From: Clostridium mediterraneense
Lineage (GTDB): Bacteria > Bacillota > Clostridia > Clostridiales > Clostridiaceae
Length of the DNA stretch: 64,000 nt
Assembly: GCF_900091705.1 (NCBI RefSeq)
Contig: NZ_LT594784.1
Location: 1 to 64,000, forward strand
Reading direction: 5' to 3'
The translations under genes and the position numbers were made by a program. A model generated the notes under the pieces. That model was not told the DNA's origin. It searched no databases and saw nothing but the letters and a program-made list of their open reading frames with translations. This document shows positions 37,447-47,714 of the stretch, piece by piece (position 1 is the first letter of the stretch; the number at the start of each line of letters is the position of its first letter).

Positions 37447-38100
37447 ATGAGATTAAAACTTATAGGAAAAATAATTGAAGATCTTGATAAAGATAATACA
37501 AGTCTTAATCACGAAACCTATAGTATGATATTAGCTAATATAAACACAGAAATGGCTAAAAGATTACATACAAAAGATAGATTTAAACGACTTTTTACCT
37601 TTAGTAGAGTTTATATAAATGGAGATGGTCTTCATCTATACATTTCTGGTGAAGATAGCTTAATGAAAGATTTTATAAACTATTTGATGTTTAATCAAAT
37701 GATACGAATTGGAAGTAAAGTTATTGTTATAAACGCCATTAATCCTTTAAAAAATAAAGTAAATGAAAAAGAATTATATACCTTTAAAGCAAATCTAATT
37801 GTCAATGAAAAAGAAAATAGAAAGGTATGTTTATCACAAGATTTTGATTACATAAGAAAAAGAATAAACGAAATAGCTACTGATAAATATAAAGAAATAT
37901 ATCATAAAGATCCAGAAGGTTCAATTGAAACAACTATAATTCAAGCTAAAAAAACTTATACAAGATATAAAAATCACTATCTCAACAGTTGGAAAATGAT
38001 TTTTAATCTTAAAGGTGATTATGAGCTTATAAACTTAATTTACAATGTTGGAATAGGAGAAAATACAGCATCAGGACACGGATTAATGTGGGAGGTGTAA
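37447..38100 (+). CDS. cas6: Cas6 CRISPR RNA endonuclease
   Basis: 217 residues. It cuts CRISPR precursor RNA at the repeats to give crRNAs. The RAMP fold is indicated by a basic KRLHTKDRFKRLFTFS region, a central RIGSKVIVINA strand and the C-terminal glycine-rich loop GIGENTASGHGLMWEV (about residues 201-216), the signature of Cas6. It is the first gene of the cas operon, with ribosome site TAGGAGGATAT, and its stop is 3 bases before cas8. Because single repeats also lie before cas5 and cas3, Cas6 could also cleave those messages. Confidence 0.93.
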   Translation: MRLKLIGKIIEDLDKDNTSLNHETYSMILANINTEMAKRLHTKDRFKRLFTFSRVYINGDGLHLYISGEDSLMKDFINYLMFNQMIRIGSKVIVINAINPLKNKVNEKELYTFKANLIVNEKENRKVCLSQDFDYIRKRINEIATDKYKEIYHKDPEGSIETTIIQAKKTYTRYKNHYLNSWKMIFNLKGDYELINLIYNVGIGENTASGHGLMWEV

Positions 38101-38103
38101 AAT

Positions 38104-39468
38104 TTGCTTAAATTCAAAATACCTAAAACATCAAATGATATAGAAGATTTATGTATAACATATGGAATAGTTGCTCTATTGGAGCATGTAGATGCTGAGA
38201 TAGAAATAATTAAAGATAGTCTTAATCATTATCTTATAGAATGTGAAGATTTTAATCTTGAAAAGGTTAATCAAAAAGATTTTAAATTAACACTAGATGA
38301 TATGAAAAGTACTACTCCCTTATTAAATAAAAAAAATATAGAAAATAATATTCAAGCTATATATAAATTAATAAAAGAACGTGGAAGTGATATTTTAAAT
38401 TACTATCTAACAGAAGATAAGTCCTATATAAAAGGCTTAAACAATGATAGTGTTGGTTTTTGTGGTAATGTATTTTTCATGACAGGATTAAGATTAAATG
38501 CTACAGTCTCATCTTTTAAAACACCAAAACATCAAAAATATTTATCTTTAATTGGATGGAGCAAATATGTTAGTAAGCTTCAAATAATAAAGAAAAATAG
38601 TAAGATAAATGATAAAAATACTGAACACTTTATTTACTTAATTCCAAAAATAAAAGAAGTTGAGCAAATTGATAAGATAGTTTTATGGAGTAAAGACCGT
38701 GAGACAGGACTTAATAAAGAACTTAATTTTATTAGCGATGAAAGTGTTAATACAGCTTTAGCTAAAGTCTTATTGTCAAACATAGAACATGAAATAACTT
38801 CAGATGGATATGATGGATTTTATTCAGTAGTTTTAATACCATCTAATCAAAAAACTATACCAAATACATTTAAAACAATTAATTTTTTAGATGAATTATT
38901 AAGTAATAATTTAATTGAATGGTTTAATCTAAAACTTTATAACATTGACATTAGAGAATATGCCGCAAAATTTATACTTGATATGAATAATTATTCAAAA
39001 CTATCTAACTTTATAAAAATAATGTCTAAAAAAGATTATTATGAAAAAAATGGTGAAGTTAAAATGGGATATATCCCTCAAAATATAATTAAGGAGTTGT
39101 TATCCATGCAAAATGATAAAGTTATAGAAATCTATAATAACAAATCAGTTAAAATACTTGGACGAGGGTTAAATAGACTATTAAAAGATAATAAAGGATA
39201 TGAAGTACAAGTCAGTATTCTAAATACTAATAATCTAGAGCAACTAATGAAAGGAATAACCAAGCTTTGTACATTATATAGAAGATATTATAGTGAAGAA
39301 AATAAAATTAAATCTATTATAAATGATGAGCAAATAGATAAAATATTTAAGCTTATAGATAATAATAAGGATGCAAAAGTTGTTGCAGATGCAATACTTT
39401 TTAATTCTAAAATATTTTTAGCTGAAAATAATACTGATAATAAAGTAAAAGATGAGGTAAATAGCTAA
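38104..39468 (+). CDS. cas8: Cas8, large subunit of a type I Cascade
   Basis: 454 residues from a TTG start (GGGAGGTG before it). It has no sequence hallmark recognisable by eye, as usual for Cas8. Its position between cas6 and cas7 and its size fit a type I-A/I-B-like large subunit, which reads the PAM and holds the crRNA 5' end. The GFCGNVFFMTGLRLNATVSS part is a plausible core. Its last 120 codons have their own strong start (39106), giving a predicted Cas11 small subunit. No separate cas11 gene exists. Confidence 0.82.
   Translation: MLKFKIPKTSNDIEDLCITYGIVALLEHVDAEIEIIKDSLNHYLIECEDFNLEKVNQKDFKLTLDDMKSTTPLLNKKNIENNIQAIYKLIKERGSDILNYYLTEDKSYIKGLNNDSVGFCGNVFFMTGLRLNATVSSFKTPKHQKYLSLIGWSKYVSKLQIIKKNSKINDKNTEHFIYLIPKIKEVEQIDKIVLWSKDRETGLNKELNFISDESVNTALAKVLLSNIEHEITSDGYDGFYSVVLIPSNQKTIPNTFKTINFLDELLSNNLIEWFNLKLYNIDIREYAAKFILDMNNYSKLSNFIKIMSKKDYYEKNGEVKMGYIPQNIIKELLSMQNDKVIEIYNNKSVKILGRGLNRLLKDNKGYEVQVSILNTNNLEQLMKGITKLCTLYRRYYSEENKIKSIINDEQIDKIFKLIDNNKDAKVVADAILFNSKIFLAENNTDNKVKDEVNS
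39106..39468 (+). CDS. cas11: Predicted Cas11 small subunit from an internal start in cas8
   Basis: AAGGAG at 39091-39096 lies 9 bases before ATG 39106, which is in frame with cas8 (codon 335). The product would be 120 residues, basic and helical (MQNDKVIEIYNNKSVKILGR start, LEQLMKGITKLCTLYRRYY middle). Internal translation of the small subunit from cas8 is established for subtypes I-B, I-C and I-D. A strong Shine-Dalgarno in the middle of a gene at just this place is the evidence here. Confidence 0.65.
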   Translation: MQNDKVIEIYNNKSVKILGRGLNRLLKDNKGYEVQVSILNTNNLEQLMKGITKLCTLYRRYYSEENKIKSIINDEQIDKIFKLIDNNKDAKVVADAILFNSKIFLAENNTDNKVKDEVNS

Positions 39469-39514
39469 ATTATAAAGTTAAATATATATATAAGATTTAA
39501 GGAGTGTAATAATA

Positions 39515-40468
39515 ATGAATAAAATAGCAATAATGATGAAAATTAAATTAGCTGCAGAAGCTTTAAATAATGAAGAAAGTATAGGAAATGTAGTAATTCC
39601 AAGACAAATAACAATAGATGGAGAAAATAGACAAGCGATTTCTGGGGACATGTTAAAGCACTTACACACAAGAAATTTAAGACTCCTAGCAGATGAAACA
39701 GAATTATGTGAGGGCTGTAAAATATTTAGCCCTAATAAAAATTCATCACCAGTAGAAAAAGATGATAATCTTAGTGAATCAGGAAATAGAGTTAAGAATT
39801 GTATAATTGATGATGTTGAAGGCTTTATGGATCCAAAGGGTTCAGCTAAAAGAAGAAGTCCTATCAATTTTAGCTTTGCTATAGCTATTGAAGAAAATGA
39901 ATATCAAAATCTACTTCATACTAAAGTAGATACTACAGATGAAGCTGGAAAAAAGAAAAAGAAAATTAGTAAAATTCCTAAAAAAACTGACCCTAATGAA
40001 AACAATAACAAAATCGTTGAAAGTTTATTATTAGATGAAAGTAATCAATCAGATGAATCAAAAAATCAAAACGAAGAAAGTAAGAATACACAAATGATAT
40101 TTTATAAACCAGTTAGAAGTAATGAATATGCTCTAACAATACAATTAGAGTTAGATAGAATAGGACTTGATGATCAAAAATTAAAATATTCAGTGGATGA
40201 AGCTACTCAAAAATTAAGACAACAAAAAGCTATAATGGCATTAAGAAATATGTTTTTAGATATGGAAGGAGCTATGTGTTCAACAAGACTTCCACATTTA
40301 ATAAATATAGAAGGTATCTTAGTTAAAAAGACTGATAAAAATCAAGTTTTAAGTAAATATAGTGCTTTAAATGATGATTATAAAGAAGTAAATCAAAAAA
40401 TATCTAATGAAAGTCTTATTTTTAATAATATAGAAGAATTCTGTGATGTAATAAATTCATTAATTTAA
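39515..40468 (+). CDS. cas7: Cas7 (DevR/Csa2-like) Cascade backbone protein
   Basis: 317 residues. It forms the helical backbone along the crRNA. DevR-family features are visible: RQAISGDMLKHLHTRNLRLL, a cysteine pair CEGC, the IIDDVEGFMDP and KRRSPINFSFAIAI segments, and late MALRNMFLDMEGAMC. A Lys/Asp/Asn-rich insert (about residues 145-195) interrupts the fold, probably the thumb region. The ribosome site is AAGGAGTGTAATA. The sequence style is nearer to Csa2/DevR Cas7 than to Csh2, so the subtype is left open between I-A and I-B. Confidence 0.88.
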   Translation: MNKIAIMMKIKLAAEALNNEESIGNVVIPRQITIDGENRQAISGDMLKHLHTRNLRLLADETELCEGCKIFSPNKNSSPVEKDDNLSESGNRVKNCIIDDVEGFMDPKGSAKRRSPINFSFAIAIEENEYQNLLHTKVDTTDEAGKKKKKISKIPKKTDPNENNNKIVESLLLDESNQSDESKNQNEESKNTQMIFYKPVRSNEYALTIQLELDRIGLDDQKLKYSVDEATQKLRQQKAIMALRNMFLDMEGAMCSTRLPHLINIEGILVKKTDKNQVLSKYSALNDDYKEVNQKISNESLIFNNIEEFCDVINSLI

Positions 40469-40486
40469 AAGCTAATTTTCATTATA

Positions 40487-40623
40487 TTTTACCAGATACT
40501 TTTTGCTATTCAGCTTATAATTCCAAATAATAAAAATATAAATCACTGGTAAAAAATAAATAAAATAGTCCTATTAATGGATTTATAAAGTTTTTTTATT
40601 TTTAAAATGGCTATTTTACTATT
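40487..40623 (+). promoter_or_regulatory. Second copy of the CRISPR leader, before cas5
   Basis: 137 bases that align along their whole length with the true leader at 41321-41458. Both begin with TTTTACCAG, which pairs with CTGGTAAAA further in (40546-40554 here), and both end TTTTTAAAATGGCTATTTT-ACTATT directly before a repeat. The last 60 bases are nearly identical. Confidence 0.88.
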
Positions 40624-40653
40624 ATTAGAATTTTATATAAGTATTATCAAATA
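40624..40653 (+). repeat. Single degenerate CRISPR repeat in the cas5 leader
   Basis: The first 24 bases equal the array repeat. The last part reads ATCAAATA in place of ATTAAAAG, so the crRNA handle is altered while the Cas6-recognised body is kept. It ends 25 bases before the cas5 start codon, with the AAAGGAG site in between. Confidence 0.88.
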
Positions 40654-40678
40654 AAATTTAATCTTAAAGGAGAAATTT

Positions 40679-41320
40679 ATGAAAAAAGTAACTTATAAAA
40701 CTAGCAATCTATTTAGCTTTAAAAAATATAATCATGCAGATACTTTAGCACAAAGCTATGAATATCCAACTATTTATGGAATTAGATGTGCTATTATAGG
40801 AGCAATAATTCAAACTGACGGAATAGAAAAAGCAAAAGAATTATTTTTTAAAGTAAAGAATAGCAACATATATATTCAATATCCAAAATCATATTTTAAA
40901 ACTGTTGTTAAACAAAGTAGATTAAAAACAACTGATAAAAGAAGTAAAAAAGAAAAAGATGATGATGAAAAGAATGGAATAACTCCTAATTTGACAGTTT
41001 CAACTATGGGTGCAAGAGAATATTTAGATTTAAAGGAAGTTATATTTTATATTGATAATTTAATTCCCAATATAGAAATGTATTTAAAAAATATAGACTG
41101 GATAGGAAATGCTGAAAGTATAGTTTATTTAGACAAAATAGAAGAGGTTAATTTATTAGAAAATATACTAAAAAAATGGGATAAAAAAAATTGTGTTGAA
41201 ATTTTTGAACAACATGATTGGAATAGCAAAACAAGTTTTGATTCTATATATACATATAGCAACAAATATAAACATCATCATGATACTTTTTACTGTGAAA
41301 TAAGTAATATCCAATTATAA
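40679..41320 (+). CDS. cas5: Cas5 Cascade subunit
   Basis: 213 residues. Cas5 caps the 5' handle of the crRNA in Cascade. The N-terminal RAMP start with a Phe/Tyr-rich strand (FSFKKYNHADTLAQSYEYPT) and the conserved turn YGIRCAIIGAIIQ are characteristic. A basic loop (KQSRLKTTDKRSKKEKDDDEKN) follows. Unlike most operons it does not overlap cas7. A 210-base gap with a leader copy and one repeat precedes it, and the true leader begins at the base after its stop. The ribosome site is AAAGGAGAAATTT. Confidence 0.85.
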   Translation: MKKVTYKTSNLFSFKKYNHADTLAQSYEYPTIYGIRCAIIGAIIQTDGIEKAKELFFKVKNSNIYIQYPKSYFKTVVKQSRLKTTDKRSKKEKDDDEKNGITPNLTVSTMGAREYLDLKEVIFYIDNLIPNIEMYLKNIDWIGNAESIVYLDKIEEVNLLENILKKWDKKNCVEIFEQHDWNSKTSFDSIYTYSNKYKHHHDTFYCEISNIQL

Positions 41321-41458
41321 TTTTACCAGGCAATCTTACCAAAGCTAGTTATAATCACAAATCTAAAAAATATAAATCGCTGGTAAAAAACAAATAGAAT
41401 GGCTCTATTAGTTAGTTTATAAAGTATTTTATATTTTTAAAATGGCTATTTTACTATT
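41321..41458 (+). promoter_or_regulatory. CRISPR leader
   Basis: 138 AT-rich bases between the cas5 stop and the first repeat. It contains the inverted pair TTTTACCAG (41321-41329) and CTGGTAAAA (41380-41388). Transcription of the array in the plus direction is supported by this position and by the repeat end ATTAAAAG, which resembles the usual ATTGAAAG handle. Confidence 0.85.
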
Positions 41459-44400
41459 ATTAGAATTTTATATAAGTATTATTAAAAGTAGCATTAGAAT
41501 TTTTCTTAGTAGCATCTGCTGCACATTAGAATTTTATATAAGTATTATTAAAAGTCACCAGCTCTGAATAAAGAAATATTATTTGTTGTACATTAGAATT
41601 TTATATAAGTATTATTAAAAGGCACTTCTTAAGACATCTCCAGTATCATTATCTGGTATTAGAATTTTATATAAGTATTATTAAAAGTTACCAACCTTAT
41701 TAGGATTAAATTCTAAAGTAGCAAATTAGAATTTTATATAAGTATTATTAAAAGTATAGCCTTGTAGCATAAACTTTACGTAAACTGTGACATTAGAATT
41801 TTATATAAGTATTATTAAAAGTTTGTAAACTCCATAAAATCACCCCACTTTTTGAATTAGAATTTTATATAAGTATTATTAAAAGAGATGCTCATTTTCC
41901 ATTTATTAATTTTACAATCGAATTAGAATTTTATATAAGTATTATTAAAAGTATGCTTAGCACAAAACAAAGCTCCTTGCAAAGATTTATTAGAATTTTA
42001 TATAAGTATTATTAAAAGAATAAAGGGCTTTTAATTAATGCTGATATAAATGGAATTAGAATTTTATATAAGTATTATTAAAAGAGTTAAATATAATTAT
42101 TTTTTAAAAGATTTAGCTAATTAGAATTTTATATAAGTATTATTAAAAGCTTCTCTATTAATCTTTTCATTGAGGCTATCTACATTAGAATTTTATATAA
42201 GTATTATTAAAAGAATAGAAATTCTATTCAAGTATATTTTCAAAATGGATTAGAATTTTATATAAGTATTATTAAAAGAAATAAAGCTACACAAGCTCTA
42301 AATGACGCTAAAAGATTAGAATTTTATATAAGTATTATTAAAAGTTAAAATAATTAATTAATTCTTCTTCAATCCCCATATTATTAGAATTTTATATAAG
42401 TATTATTAAAAGTCTTTCCAGTAAAGAGTTTTTACCTTAGTAGCATATATTAGAATTTTATATAAGTATTATTAAAAGCCTAATGGATTTGGTGCAGGAT
42501 TTGGAAATAATAAATTAGAATTTTATATAAGTATTATTAAAAGGTTTTTACTGGATTTACAATTCCAAGTAATATAAGTTATTAGAATTTTATATAAGTA
42601 TTATTAAAAGTTTATTATTAGGATTTAAAGAAGCTATTAAAGATAATTAGAATTTTATATAAGTATTATTAAAAGATCTATCATTGATATTAAGTTTGAG
42701 AATGATTTAGAATTAGAATTTTATATAAGTATTATTAAAAGTTATTTTCTTAGCTTTTTTAATAGCATAACAACCATTAGAATTTTATATAAGTATTATT
42801 AAAAGGATATGACTAAAGTACTTATAGATGATTATGTTAAAATTAGAATTTTATATAAGTATTATTAAAAGTGTGTAGCCTTTTCGGCAGGTCTGAATAT
42901 GTCAGATTAGAATTTTATATAAGTATTATTAAAAGTTATCAGTTATTACATCTTTTATTCTTACAGAAATTAGAATTTTATATAAGTATTATTAAAAGAA
43001 CCTGTAAAATTAGTAAAAATAATAATGAAATATATTAGAATTTTATATAAGTATTATTAAAAGAATCCATACTTTTTACCAATTCCTCCACTATTCCAAA
43101 TTAGAATTTTATATAAGTATTATTAAAAGTAATAATGAGACTCGCTTTGTAATGCCCATGCTAAGATTAGAATTTTATATAAGTATTATTAAAAGGAATT
43201 TTTCAATGAGGATTTAGAAGAAGAAAGTGGAATTAGAATTTTATATAAGTATTATTAAAAGAATCTACGACAAACAATAGAACGAGATAAAAACATAATT
43301 AGAATTTTATATAAGTATTATTAAAAGTTGTTTTATTGTATTTTCTTAGCTATTTTATAAGAATTAGAATTTTATATAAGTATTATTAAAAGTTAAGATT
43401 AATAGACGTAAATTTTGGCATAACTTTAATTAGAATTTTATATAAGTATTATTAAAAGTATTAAAATCTTTAACCATTACAGTTGCTTTAAATATTAGAA
43501 TTTTATATAAGTATTATTAAAAGTGGAAAAAGGGATCTGGGATTTAGATTACGATAAGGATTAGAATTTTATATAAGTATTATTAAAAGTTGGACTGCTT
43601 TTGCTAATGGTGTTGGAGTTTATGAATTAGAATTTTATATAAGTATTATTAAAAGGCAACACTATAATGCCTATACATTGTAAAAAACTCAAATTAGAAT
43701 TTTATATAAGTATTATTAAAAGTAATAGAAGATAAAACTATAAATAAAGCAAGTCCACATTAGAATTTTATATAAGTATTATTAAAAGAAAAAGGGGTGC
43801 TATACATTTCCATTGCATATTTTTATTAGAATTTTATATAAGTATTATTAAAAGTTTATACAGTTCTTTGACGAGTTTATGACCATGAAGATTAGAATTT
43901 TATATAAGTATTATTAAAAGGTAGGAGAGTATGGTGGTTCTAGGTATATGGATTTATTAGAATTTTATATAAGTATTATTAAAAGTATGATAGTTCTGTG
44001 ACTTCTAGTGTTTGACCGTATTAGAATTTTATATAAGTATTATTAAAAGTATTAATGCCCCCTTTCCTCTAGAACCTCTTTATAAATTAGAATTTTATAT
44101 AAGTATTATTAAAAGATGAAAACAATAATGAAAAAGGTTATGGATGGAGAAATTAGAATTTTATATAAGTATTATTAAAAGATAGTTTTGGAAATTCAAC
44201 AGCTAATGGAGTTGAAGATTAGAATTTTATATAAGTATTATTAAAAGAGAACTCGAAGAACTATTCTTAACAAGTCTTAATAAATTAGAATTTTATATAA
44301 GTATTATTAAAAGTTTGATAAGTACCATTAGGATTTAATTTAGTTTTTAAATTAGAATTTTATATAAGTATTATTAAAAGTTGCTTTTTCAGGATTGTCT

Positions 44401-45631
44401 ATTTCAGAAATATTATAATTAGAATTTTATATAAGTATTATTAAAAGTTGATAATCCGTACTTATCCATTAGCTTTGCTGCTTATTAGAATTTTATATAA
44501 GTATTATTAAAAGATTATAAGAGCAGTTCCAGTCCAGTTATTTTCATCTAATTAGAATTTTATATAAGTATTATTAAAAGAAAAAATGAGGAGCTTCTTA
44601 AACAAATAAAAGAAAAATTAGAATTTTATATAAGTATTATTAAAAGATTAATGATGATATGATTATTTCCAAAGTGCAGCTAATTAGAATTTTATATAAG
44701 TATTATTAAAAGTATCCAGTTCGTTCTTTTATGATCACCTTTTCTTATTAGAATTTTATATAAGTATTATTAAAAGTAGAGAAGATAAAGATGATAACTA
44801 TGATTATGGTATATTAGAATTTTATATAAGTATTATTAAAAGCCTTTAGTTATTAGTTATATAATAGAAAGGCAATTAATTAGAATTTTATATAAGTATT
44901 ATTAAAAGAGATTTTTAAAATAACTTATATATTCAGCTTCTTTATTAGAATTTTATATAAGTATTATTAAAAGATATTCTACTGGTATTTTTGTAGCTGC
45001 TATAATTCTATTAGAATTTTATATAAGTATTATTAAAAGTCAGCTAAGGCATCTTCTTTAACTCCTGTATGATCTAATTAGAATTTTATATAAGTATTAT
45101 TAAAAGACATGTGCTAGTCTTAATATTGATGATCCCCTAGAATTAGAATTTTATATAAGTATTATTAAAAGGGGCTTAGAGCAACAAATTACAGGGCTTA
45201 TACCAGGATTAGAATTTTATATAAGTATTATTAAAAGGAAATACAGGAAGCTGAAAATTATAATAATGAAAATATTAGAATTTTATATAAGTATTATTAA
45301 AAGAGACTAGTTTCAGTTTCTTCAAGTGCTTCTGCTAATTAGAATTTTATATAAGTATTATTAAAAGTTATGAAAGTAAGGTTGTAGTAAAAAACTTAAA
45401 TAGATTAGAATTTTATATAAGTATTATTAAAAGTTAAGTATCTGCCAAGCTCTTTGACGTGATATAGGTTATTAGAATTTTATATAAGTATTATTAAAAG
45501 ACATATGAATAATTATTATTATCATATTGGTTTATAATTAGAATTTTATATAAGTATTATTAAAAGTAAATTCCTTCTTCATCTAATTCTCTAAAATCTA
45601 CATTAGAATTTTATATAAATATTATTAAAAT
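41459..45631 (+). CRISPR. CRISPR array, 64 repeats of 30 bp and 63 spacers
   Basis: Repeats start ATTAGAATTTT, contain ATATAAGTATT and end ATTAAAAG. I counted 64 starts from 41459 to 45602 by eye. Periods are 63-68 bp, giving spacers of about 33-38 bp. All repeats up to 45566 appear identical. The last (45602-45631) has ATAAATATT for ATAAGTATT and ends in T, marking the old end. Several spacers read as plausible phage protein fragments, but no source could be checked. The array lies between cas5 and cas3. No acquisition genes are in the window. Confidence 0.98.
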
Positions 45632-45662
45632 TTTTATATTAAATAATCATAAAGGAGTAAAA

Positions 45663-47714
45663 ATGAAAGCTAAAGAATTCTTTGAAAAAATAGGTTTTAA
45701 TGAACTAAGCGAAATACAAGAAAAAGTATTAAATAGTAATAAAAATATCTTAATCCTTGGGAGTTGTGGAAGTGGTAAAACAGAAGCTATGCTTTCAAAA
45801 CTTATTGAATGGGATGACAAAGGAATATTAATAGAACCAATGAAAACTCTAGCTTCAAGTTTAAAGGATAGGCTTAATTATTATAGTGATATATTACATT
45901 TAGATAGCTGGACTATTCAACATAGTTCAGATTCAGAGGATAAATTTTTATCTAATAAATATTGCGTTACAACAATAGATCAAATATTAAGTGGATATTT
46001 AGCGATAGGTATGCAATCTTTTATACGTGGAAAAAATGTTTTAAGAAGTAATTTAGTTTTTGATGAAGTTCAATTATTTGATCCAGATAAAATGCTTTTA
46101 ACAACTATAAATATGCTTAAAGATATAAATAAGCTTGGAAATAAGTTTATTATAATGACTGCTACAATGCCTGAATATTTAATTAATTTTCTTAAAGATG
46201 AATTTAATATGGATGTTATTATATCAGAAACAGTTAGGGTTAAGAATAGAAAAAATACTATACGTTATGTAGATGTACTTAATTATAAAGAAATAAATAA
46301 TTATCAAAATAAGCAGATAATTATATGTAATACTATAAAATCTATGAAAGAAATTTATTCTAAGCTAGATAAAGACAGAGTTATTATTTTAAATAGTAAG
46401 TTTTTAAAAAATGATAGGGAAAAGATTGAAAAAGAAATGCTTTATTATTTTGGAAAAGATAGTACTGAAAATAATAAAATACTTCTAACTACTCAAATAG
46501 TTGAAGCAGGTATGGATATAAGTGCTAATAGATTATATTCAGAAGCCTGTCCTATTGATAATCTAGTTCAAAGAGATGGACGATGTGCTAGATGGGGTGG
46601 ATTAGGTGAAGTAATTGTTTTTAATTCTAATGAATCTAAAAATATATATAATACTGAAATTGTCCAAAAAACTAGTGAATATATAATAAAAAATCAAGGT
46701 ATAGAATTTAGTTGGGATATTCAAAAGCAATGGATAAATGAAATATTAAATGACTTTTATAAAGAAAAGATAAATAATATTCAGTTAGAATGTAATAAAG
46801 TTGATTTTAGATTTACTGATAGGAACAAACTTATAAGATGTATTAAAAATGTAAATATAATAGTTAGAAATGACGAACTAACAAAAGAAGATTTCAAAAG
46901 AGCTAGCATAAGTATATCTTTAAATGAACTTGATAAAATAGCTTTACATAATAATCTTTATATATTAAACAAAGGTCGAATAGAAGAAAAAGGAGTTGCA
47001 AGCATAGATATAGGTGAAACTATTATAATTCAAGGTAATAATTGTGTATATGATAAATTAGGATTTAGATATGAAGAAAATGTCTTTATAGATGATAATT
47101 TTATAGATGATTTTCCCTTAATAGAAACTGATGATTTAAAATTTGATGATTATGTAATTGAAACTTGGCTAGAACATGCGACTTCAGTAAAAAATAAAAT
47201 GAAAGAAAGATTAGAAAAAGAAAATTTTAATGATTATATTATAAATAATATTAATGATATATCTTTCTATGCAGGACTACATGACCTAGGTAAATTAGAT
47301 AAGGAATGGCTTTCTAAAGCTCCTGGTAATATCCCACTAGCCCACTTTCCTTTTAATCCAAAAGCAAGAAAAGCAGCTAAAAGAGATCATGCTGCTATAA
47401 GCTATTATAATATAAAAGATTATACTGATAAAATAATAGCAAATATGGTCTTACAACATCATGGAAGATATTCAACTGGTCAAGCACATAGAATTACCAC
47501 AACTCCTTGGGATTTTCATAATAATAGTAAATCTATATTACAAGAATACGGCTTTATTGAGGATATAAATTATAGTAGTAAAGATAAAATTATAAAAAAT
47601 AAAGAAGTTATAACACCTGCTAAAGATGAATGGATAACATTACTTTATCTTACAGGTACTTTAATGGAATGTGAAATAGACGCTATAAAAAAACATATAT
47701 TAAAGCATAAATAA
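45663..47714 (+). CDS. cas3: Cas3 helicase-nuclease with C-terminal HD domain
   Basis: 683 residues. The superfamily 2 helicase part holds Walker A GSCGSGKT (33-40), the DEVQ box (134-137), motif III TAT (166-168), and motif VI QRDGRCARWG (303-312). An HD nuclease domain follows: H505 (LEHATS), H540-D541 (GLHDLGK), H576 (RDHAA) and H599-H600 (LQHHGR). Cas3 normally has HD first, so this order is reversed, as if separate cas3' and cas3'' genes had fused. It is recruited by Cascade to shred target DNA. The gene starts 31 bases after the last repeat (AAAGGAGTAAAA site), so it is probably read from the array promoter. Confidence 0.93.
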   Translation: MKAKEFFEKIGFNELSEIQEKVLNSNKNILILGSCGSGKTEAMLSKLIEWDDKGILIEPMKTLASSLKDRLNYYSDILHLDSWTIQHSSDSEDKFLSNKYCVTTIDQILSGYLAIGMQSFIRGKNVLRSNLVFDEVQLFDPDKMLLTTINMLKDINKLGNKFIIMTATMPEYLINFLKDEFNMDVIISETVRVKNRKNTIRYVDVLNYKEINNYQNKQIIICNTIKSMKEIYSKLDKDRVIILNSKFLKNDREKIEKEMLYYFGKDSTENNKILLTTQIVEAGMDISANRLYSEACPIDNLVQRDGRCARWGGLGEVIVFNSNESKNIYNTEIVQKTSEYIIKNQGIEFSWDIQKQWINEILNDFYKEKINNIQLECNKVDFRFTDRNKLIRCIKNVNIIVRNDELTKEDFKRASISISLNELDKIALHNNLYILNKGRIEEKGVASIDIGETIIIQGNNCVYDKLGFRYEENVFIDDNFIDDFPLIETDDLKFDDYVIETWLEHATSVKNKMKERLEKENFNDYIINNINDISFYAGLHDLGKLDKEWLSKAPGNIPLAHFPFNPKARKAAKRDHAAISYYNIKDYTDKIIANMVLQHHGRYSTGQAHRITTTPWDFHNNSKSILQEYGFIEDINYSSKDKIIKNKEVITPAKDEWITLLYLTGTLMECEIDAIKKHILKHK

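Follow-up and report, generated by a model that had tools for sequence, protein, structure and literature searches.

We find that the gap between cas7 and cas5 of a type I-A cas operon in Clostridium mediterraneense holds a copy of the CRISPR array's leader that runs into a single repeat. The most economical reading is that this element is a second CRISPR cassette devoid of spacers, with an intact site at which Cas6 could cut the operon message, and we put the probability of this reading at about one half. Its origin is moderately supported; its function we infer from the part of the repeat that is preserved.

A leader copy and a lone repeat in a type I-A cas operon

The window analysed here, a stretch of 64,000 nucleotides, is part of contig C4 of a low-GC clostridial genome of 3.08 Mb. 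It contains a cas operon with the order cas6, cas8a, cas7, a 210-base gap, cas5a, leader, array, and cas3 (Table 1). This operon encodes a divergent type I-A effector and lacks cas1, cas2, and cas4. The core of the assignment is formed by PADLOC matches for Cas8a (7e-38) and Cas5a (9e-15), together with a DevR-family Cas7 (4e-46); Pfam and NCBIfam profile searches with the cas8a product returned no match. The split cas3'/cas3'' expected of type I-A is absent, with a single cas3 gene here, and no open reading frame of at least 80 amino acids at the locus corresponds to a separate small subunit Csa5. The end of Cas8a weakly matches Cas11a (PADLOC). No solved structures with sequence similarity to Cas7 or Cas5 were found. 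The 4.2-kb array (41459-45662) sits within the operon, between cas5 and cas3, so that transcription of cas3 would either pass through the array or start at a promoter inside it. The newest spacer (41489-41524) includes ATTAGAATTTT, identical to the opening 11 bases of the repeat, which may be a coincidence.

Table 1. Features of the type I-A cas operon and its lone element (window positions).
Feature	Position	Strand	Evidence
cas6	37447-38100	+	TIGR01877 (5e-16), PF01881 (1e-13); top PADLOC models generic Cas6 and Cas6b
cas8a, type I-A large subunit	38104-39468	+	PADLOC Cas8a PDLC01586 (7e-38)
cas7, DevR/Csa2 family	39515-40468	+	PF01905 (4e-46), TIGR01875 (4e-35)
Leader copy in cas7-cas5 gap	40487-40623	+	Alignment with 41321-41458; boxes in common with type I-B leader of contig C3
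Lone repeat	40624-40653	+	Positions 1-24 as in array repeat; handle ATCAAATA instead of ATTAAAAG
Trailer and cas5 ribosome-binding site	40654-40678	+	15 of 17 bases like trailer 3' of the array's last repeat
cas5a	40679-41320	+	PADLOC Cas5a PDLC01390 (9e-15)
Array leader	41321-41458	+	Alignment with leader copy; boxes
CRISPR array	41459-45631	+	64 repeats (63 identical, last degenerate); 63 spacers of 33-38 bases
Degenerate terminal repeat	45602-45631	+	31 bases 5' of cas3 ATG
cas3, helicase then HD domain	45663-47714	+	TIGR01587 (4e-49), TIGR01596 (8e-7), PF18019 (2e-7)

The leader copy (40487-40623) aligns with the array leader (41321-41458) at a score of 133, compared with a maximum of 42 among 2000 dinucleotide shuffles. 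The duplication of the leader, which the initial annotation had proposed, is therefore far above chance. BLAST identity of 87% takes in the repeat; the leader by itself is 79% identical. Set against the 63 identical array repeats (ATTAGAATTTTATATAAGTATTATTAAAAG), the lone repeat (ATTAGAATTTTATATAAGTATTATCAAATA) is the same at 27 of 30 positions, and its three changes all fall within the last eight bases, the handle. It ends 25 bases before the cas5 ATG (40679), and a search of the 3.08 Mb genome, allowing up to two mismatches, gave no further copy of the repeat body beyond the array. The annotation's description of one repeat 25 bases ahead of cas5, with an intact body and a changed handle, thus holds, and at this mismatch limit the copy at 40624-40653 is the only one outside the array genome-wide. 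The lone element resembles a CRISPR array in that a leader adjoins its first repeat; an array has at least two repeats with a spacer between them, and the lone element has one repeat.

Differences between the two leaders, which affect 29 of 138 alignment columns, are unevenly placed. A run of 51 consecutive identical columns takes in the last 27 of the leader and the first 24 of the repeat (P = 4.5e-6 under an even spread). Gene conversion between the neighbouring copies could also produce this run. When the type I-B leader of contig C3 serves as outgroup, 70 of 82 shared positions are retained in the lone leader, versus 39 of 56 unshared ones (P = 0.034). The same outgroup assigns 12 changes to the branch of the lone leader and 8 to that of the array leader, a difference that is not significant (P = 0.50), so the lone leader is not visibly decaying faster. 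One base has been deleted from the copy, in an AT-rich stretch between the leader boxes. Within the lone repeat, the part read by Cas6 is intact, and the handle, the part bound by Cas5, is changed (roles of repeat positions as in PMC9458426).

The type I-B locus on contig C3 encodes the only Cas1 of the genome and has the order cas7-cas5-cas3-array-cas4-cas1-cas2. Its leader and both window leaders have in common ACCAG, a ATCRCTGGTAAAAAA-type box, and ATGGCTATTTTACTATT at the repeat junction. Among 208 family genomes the spaced leader motif occurs three times, always in this genome. These shared boxes, and the location of the only Cas1, suggest that the adaptation proteins of the type I-B locus probably supply the type I-A array with its spacers. 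It is thus likely, judging from leader and gene content, that the type I-A effector (37447-47714) acquires spacers in trans via the type I-B locus (L020:2638-16385). The 16-base leader end was also matched in the genus genomes G001, G004, and G005, in no case adjoining repeats. An inverted pair, TTTACCAG ... CTGGTAAA, about 43-45 bases apart, is present in all three leaders (40487-40623, 41321-41458, and L020:9293-9431) and is possibly a protein-binding or adaptation element.

Comparison with other loci and with guide-type regulators

The survey comprised 60 Cas1 loci of the family, drawn from 115 Cas1-encoding genomes, together with the window and the type I-B locus on contig C3; 58 array-bearing family loci, the window included, were scanned. 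A leader copy apart from any array, together with a lone repeat, was found in two of the 58: the window and L184, a type I-B locus in another genus of the family (genome G163; L184:17350-18256, minus strand). As in the window, L184 has a leader copy (score 95 versus its array leader), a lone repeat with no second repeat, and an adjoining cas gene. It differs from the window in that the gene is cas6 (PF01881), 184 bases past the repeat, with a terminator-like hairpin between the two, and in that the handle is unchanged, the repeat being perfect (30/30). Outside the family, the type I-A locus L097 (genome G647) likewise has a leader copy (score 94) and a repeat (33/37) inside the cas locus, between cas6 and cas1. 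Unlike the window, however, it continues as a one-spacer mini-array, with a 36-base spacer, a truncated second repeat, and then a terminator-like hairpin.

Of 17 further type I-A loci from the phylum, none carries a lone repeat next to cas5. Other leader-copy matches were discarded: those at L147, L166, and L181 score like runs of masked bases, and those at L150, L163, L172, L176, and L179 were judged collectively to represent trailers, duplicated DNA, or sequence flanking other arrays. No close relative of the window's cas5 or cas7 was found, and a pattern scan of genome and viral contigs gave no Cas5 or Cas7 relatives. A tblastn match in G125 was set aside as chance, its gene neighbourhood being unrelated; G345 gave a weak Cas7 match, and the plasmid collection held no near match, only distant DevR proteins.

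Stand-alone repeats also occur near cas operons elsewhere in the family (L148, L154, L168, L170, L176, L180, L194, L196, and L199). Six of these loci (L148, L154, L168, L170, L176, and L194) have a clear truncated second repeat 21-34 bases on, and in five type I-B loci (L148, L154, L170, L176, and L194) a repeat of this kind, followed by its truncated partner, lies upstream of the cas operon. The single repeat of L196 is accompanied by a 21-base seed match (PAM TCA) that lies 114 bases further downstream, ahead of cas6. In L161 (718-1664), clustered repeats 64-65 bases apart surround a small open reading frame upstream of the cas operon and are possibly small arrays.

Stand-alone repeats of this sort have been surveyed before: Shmakov et al. 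(2023) reportedly catalogued repeat copies outside arrays near cas genes, mostly of type I, and their cases are said to be mainly mini-arrays with spacers aimed at cas promoters. CreR and CreA are crRNA-like regulatory RNAs that arise from stand-alone repeats in cas loci (PMC9458426, PMC8501985; review PMC12737573). CreR-like elements consist of a stand-alone repeat, a short spacer, and usually a truncated second repeat, with a target near the cas promoter. The window shares with them a stand-alone, partly degenerate repeat within a cas locus (one repeat, 27/30, where they have one or two degenerate repeats outside an array). It differs in its full leader copy, in a repeat body that is intact and not broadly degenerate, and in lacking a promoter-matching spacer and a second repeat, the latter being usual but not universal among such elements.

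The initial annotation had suggested that the lone repeat could yield such an RNA, guiding Cascade to its own promoter. On this reading, the RNA would lead Cascade to the cas promoter and repress the cas genes. The mini-arrays upstream of cas operons in the same family speak for this idea, but the sequence around the lone repeat does not bear it out. The best candidate for a truncated second repeat 3' of the lone repeat matches at 13 of 20 positions (P = 0.35). The 30-36 bases downstream match the cas intergenic regions no better than chance, with no convincing seed match (P = 0.50) and nothing in the region upstream of cas6. Ten frame offsets across five regions gave two nominal matches, namely the trailer similarity and a 10-base AT-rich match within the leader copy. 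The positive controls were detected: L148 returned its second repeat and a target (seed 15, PAM TCA), and L196 its target (seed 21, PAM TCA), each at 0 of 300 shuffles. Most mini-arrays in relatives likewise show no target by the seed test, so the negative result for the lone repeat is informative, not absolute. Protospacer searches for the array's own PAM gave two weak phage matches and no clear ones in genus genomes. Furthermore, the handle gripped by Cas5 is changed, so a cleavage product should load into Cascade poorly or not at all. We thus rejected a guide RNA as the leading reading and regard it as highly improbable.

Predicted processing and origin of the element

No terminator-like sites were found in 40440-41560, including the cas7-cas5 gap, so read-through from upstream may suffice for cas5. 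RNA from the cas6, cas8a, and cas7 genes, or from the leader itself, would cross the lone repeat. Cas6 would then cut there, giving a cas6-cas8a-cas7 piece and a separate cas5 message that would begin with the altered eight-base handle. The cas3 message would arise likewise, by a Cas6 cut at the array's terminal repeat that releases a 5' handle. Since the repeat is predicted to be unstructured, recognition by Cas6 would rest on its sequence. The repeat part read by Cas6 is intact, and a cas5 message spanning it should therefore carry a Cas6 target, in agreement with what the annotation had anticipated.

In Cascade, the cas7 product is present in many copies and the cas5 product in one. The lone repeat might be a built-in switch: by cutting the polycistronic cas message in the cas7-cas5 gap, Cas6 would tune the ratio of subunits or exert feedback on Cas5, and the altered handle would keep the cas5 message from being captured as a guide. 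We consider such a dedicated role unlikely.

As to origin, leader, array, and trailer were most likely duplicated as one unit, and the duplicated array then emptied of its spacers through recombination between repeats. The lone repeat is altered at its 3' end alone, as the last repeats of arrays tend to be. The sequence 3' of the lone repeat (TAATCTTAAAGGAGAAA) and that 3' of the array's degenerate last repeat (TAATCATAAAGGAGTAA) are alike at 15 of 17 positions, and the layouts are parallel: cas5 begins 25 bases past the lone repeat, cas3 31 bases past the terminal one. Among pairs of upstream regions in this genome the trailer similarity has P = 0.007, rising to 0.037 when both must contain AAGGAG and are so matched for the ribosome-binding site; the similarity is weak. 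It is a hint, short of proof, that the duplication extended from the leader as far as the trailer, over a whole array. The flanks upstream of the two leaders, whose homology would have shown the direction of the duplication, are not significantly similar (P = 0.07 to 0.20). No relative with a filled array at the cas7-cas5 position is known.

Alternatives and implications

The element could also be an inert leftover of a duplicated leader and array end, without effect on cas5. This is a serious possibility, although we judge it short of even odds. Its placement between cas7 and cas5 in a single genome, the degenerate handle, and the base lost between the leader boxes are all consistent with a relic. 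The leader end and repeat body are unchanged, however, although the rest of the leader differs by 21%, and the branch lengths carry no sign of faster decay. Alternatively, the leader copy may serve as a promoter at which a separate cas5 transcript begins, as the annotation had thought probable. Leaders normally contain the array promoter, and the copy retains the leader end. Promoter-like sites nevertheless number 10, against 10.3 expected from shuffles; the copy's counterpart of the array leader's best -35/-10 pair has its two boxes one base closer together, and transcription from upstream is unblocked by any terminator-like site. We hold such a promoter possible but doubtful.

A leader and one repeat are a known minimal acquisition substrate in other systems, and the element might be a live zero-spacer array that the Cas1-Cas2-Cas4 proteins of the type I-B locus can fill. 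In its leader boxes and leader-repeat junction the element agrees with both filled arrays of the genome, and the only Cas1 is encoded at that locus. Yet the element has 0 spacers, versus 63 in the array 800 bases away, and equal use would have filled it, barring a recent emptying or selection against insertions; on balance, continuing acquisition seems distinctly improbable. Solitary repeats just 3' of promoters have been described, and the solitary repeat units that give rise to Racr resemble the window in having a single repeat after a promoter-like region (PMC10651486). The units studied are carried by phages and plasmids and work against the system of their host (PMC10651486); the window's repeat is in a host cas operon. 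A decoy of this type, with repeat RNA titrating Cas6 or Cas7 and so limiting the system, would fit a solitary repeat after a leader (cf. PMC10651486). Inside the host's own operon, beside the 64 repeats of the array, it would be a small share of the repeat pool, and we give the idea very little credence.

The usual interpretation of stand-alone repeats in cas loci is that they are guide-RNA regulators. The window, which has a complete leader copy but no guide, points to a different route, in which emptied arrays are left in cas operons. This genome, moreover, combines a type I-A effector with a type I-B system on another contig, with which it apparently shares leader motifs and perhaps spacer acquisition. 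Our results suggest that the repeat of an emptied array could serve as a site of cas mRNA processing. Should Cas6 indeed cut at this point, the operon would show, in a natural setting, how Cas6 can influence the expression of the effector complex to which it belongs.
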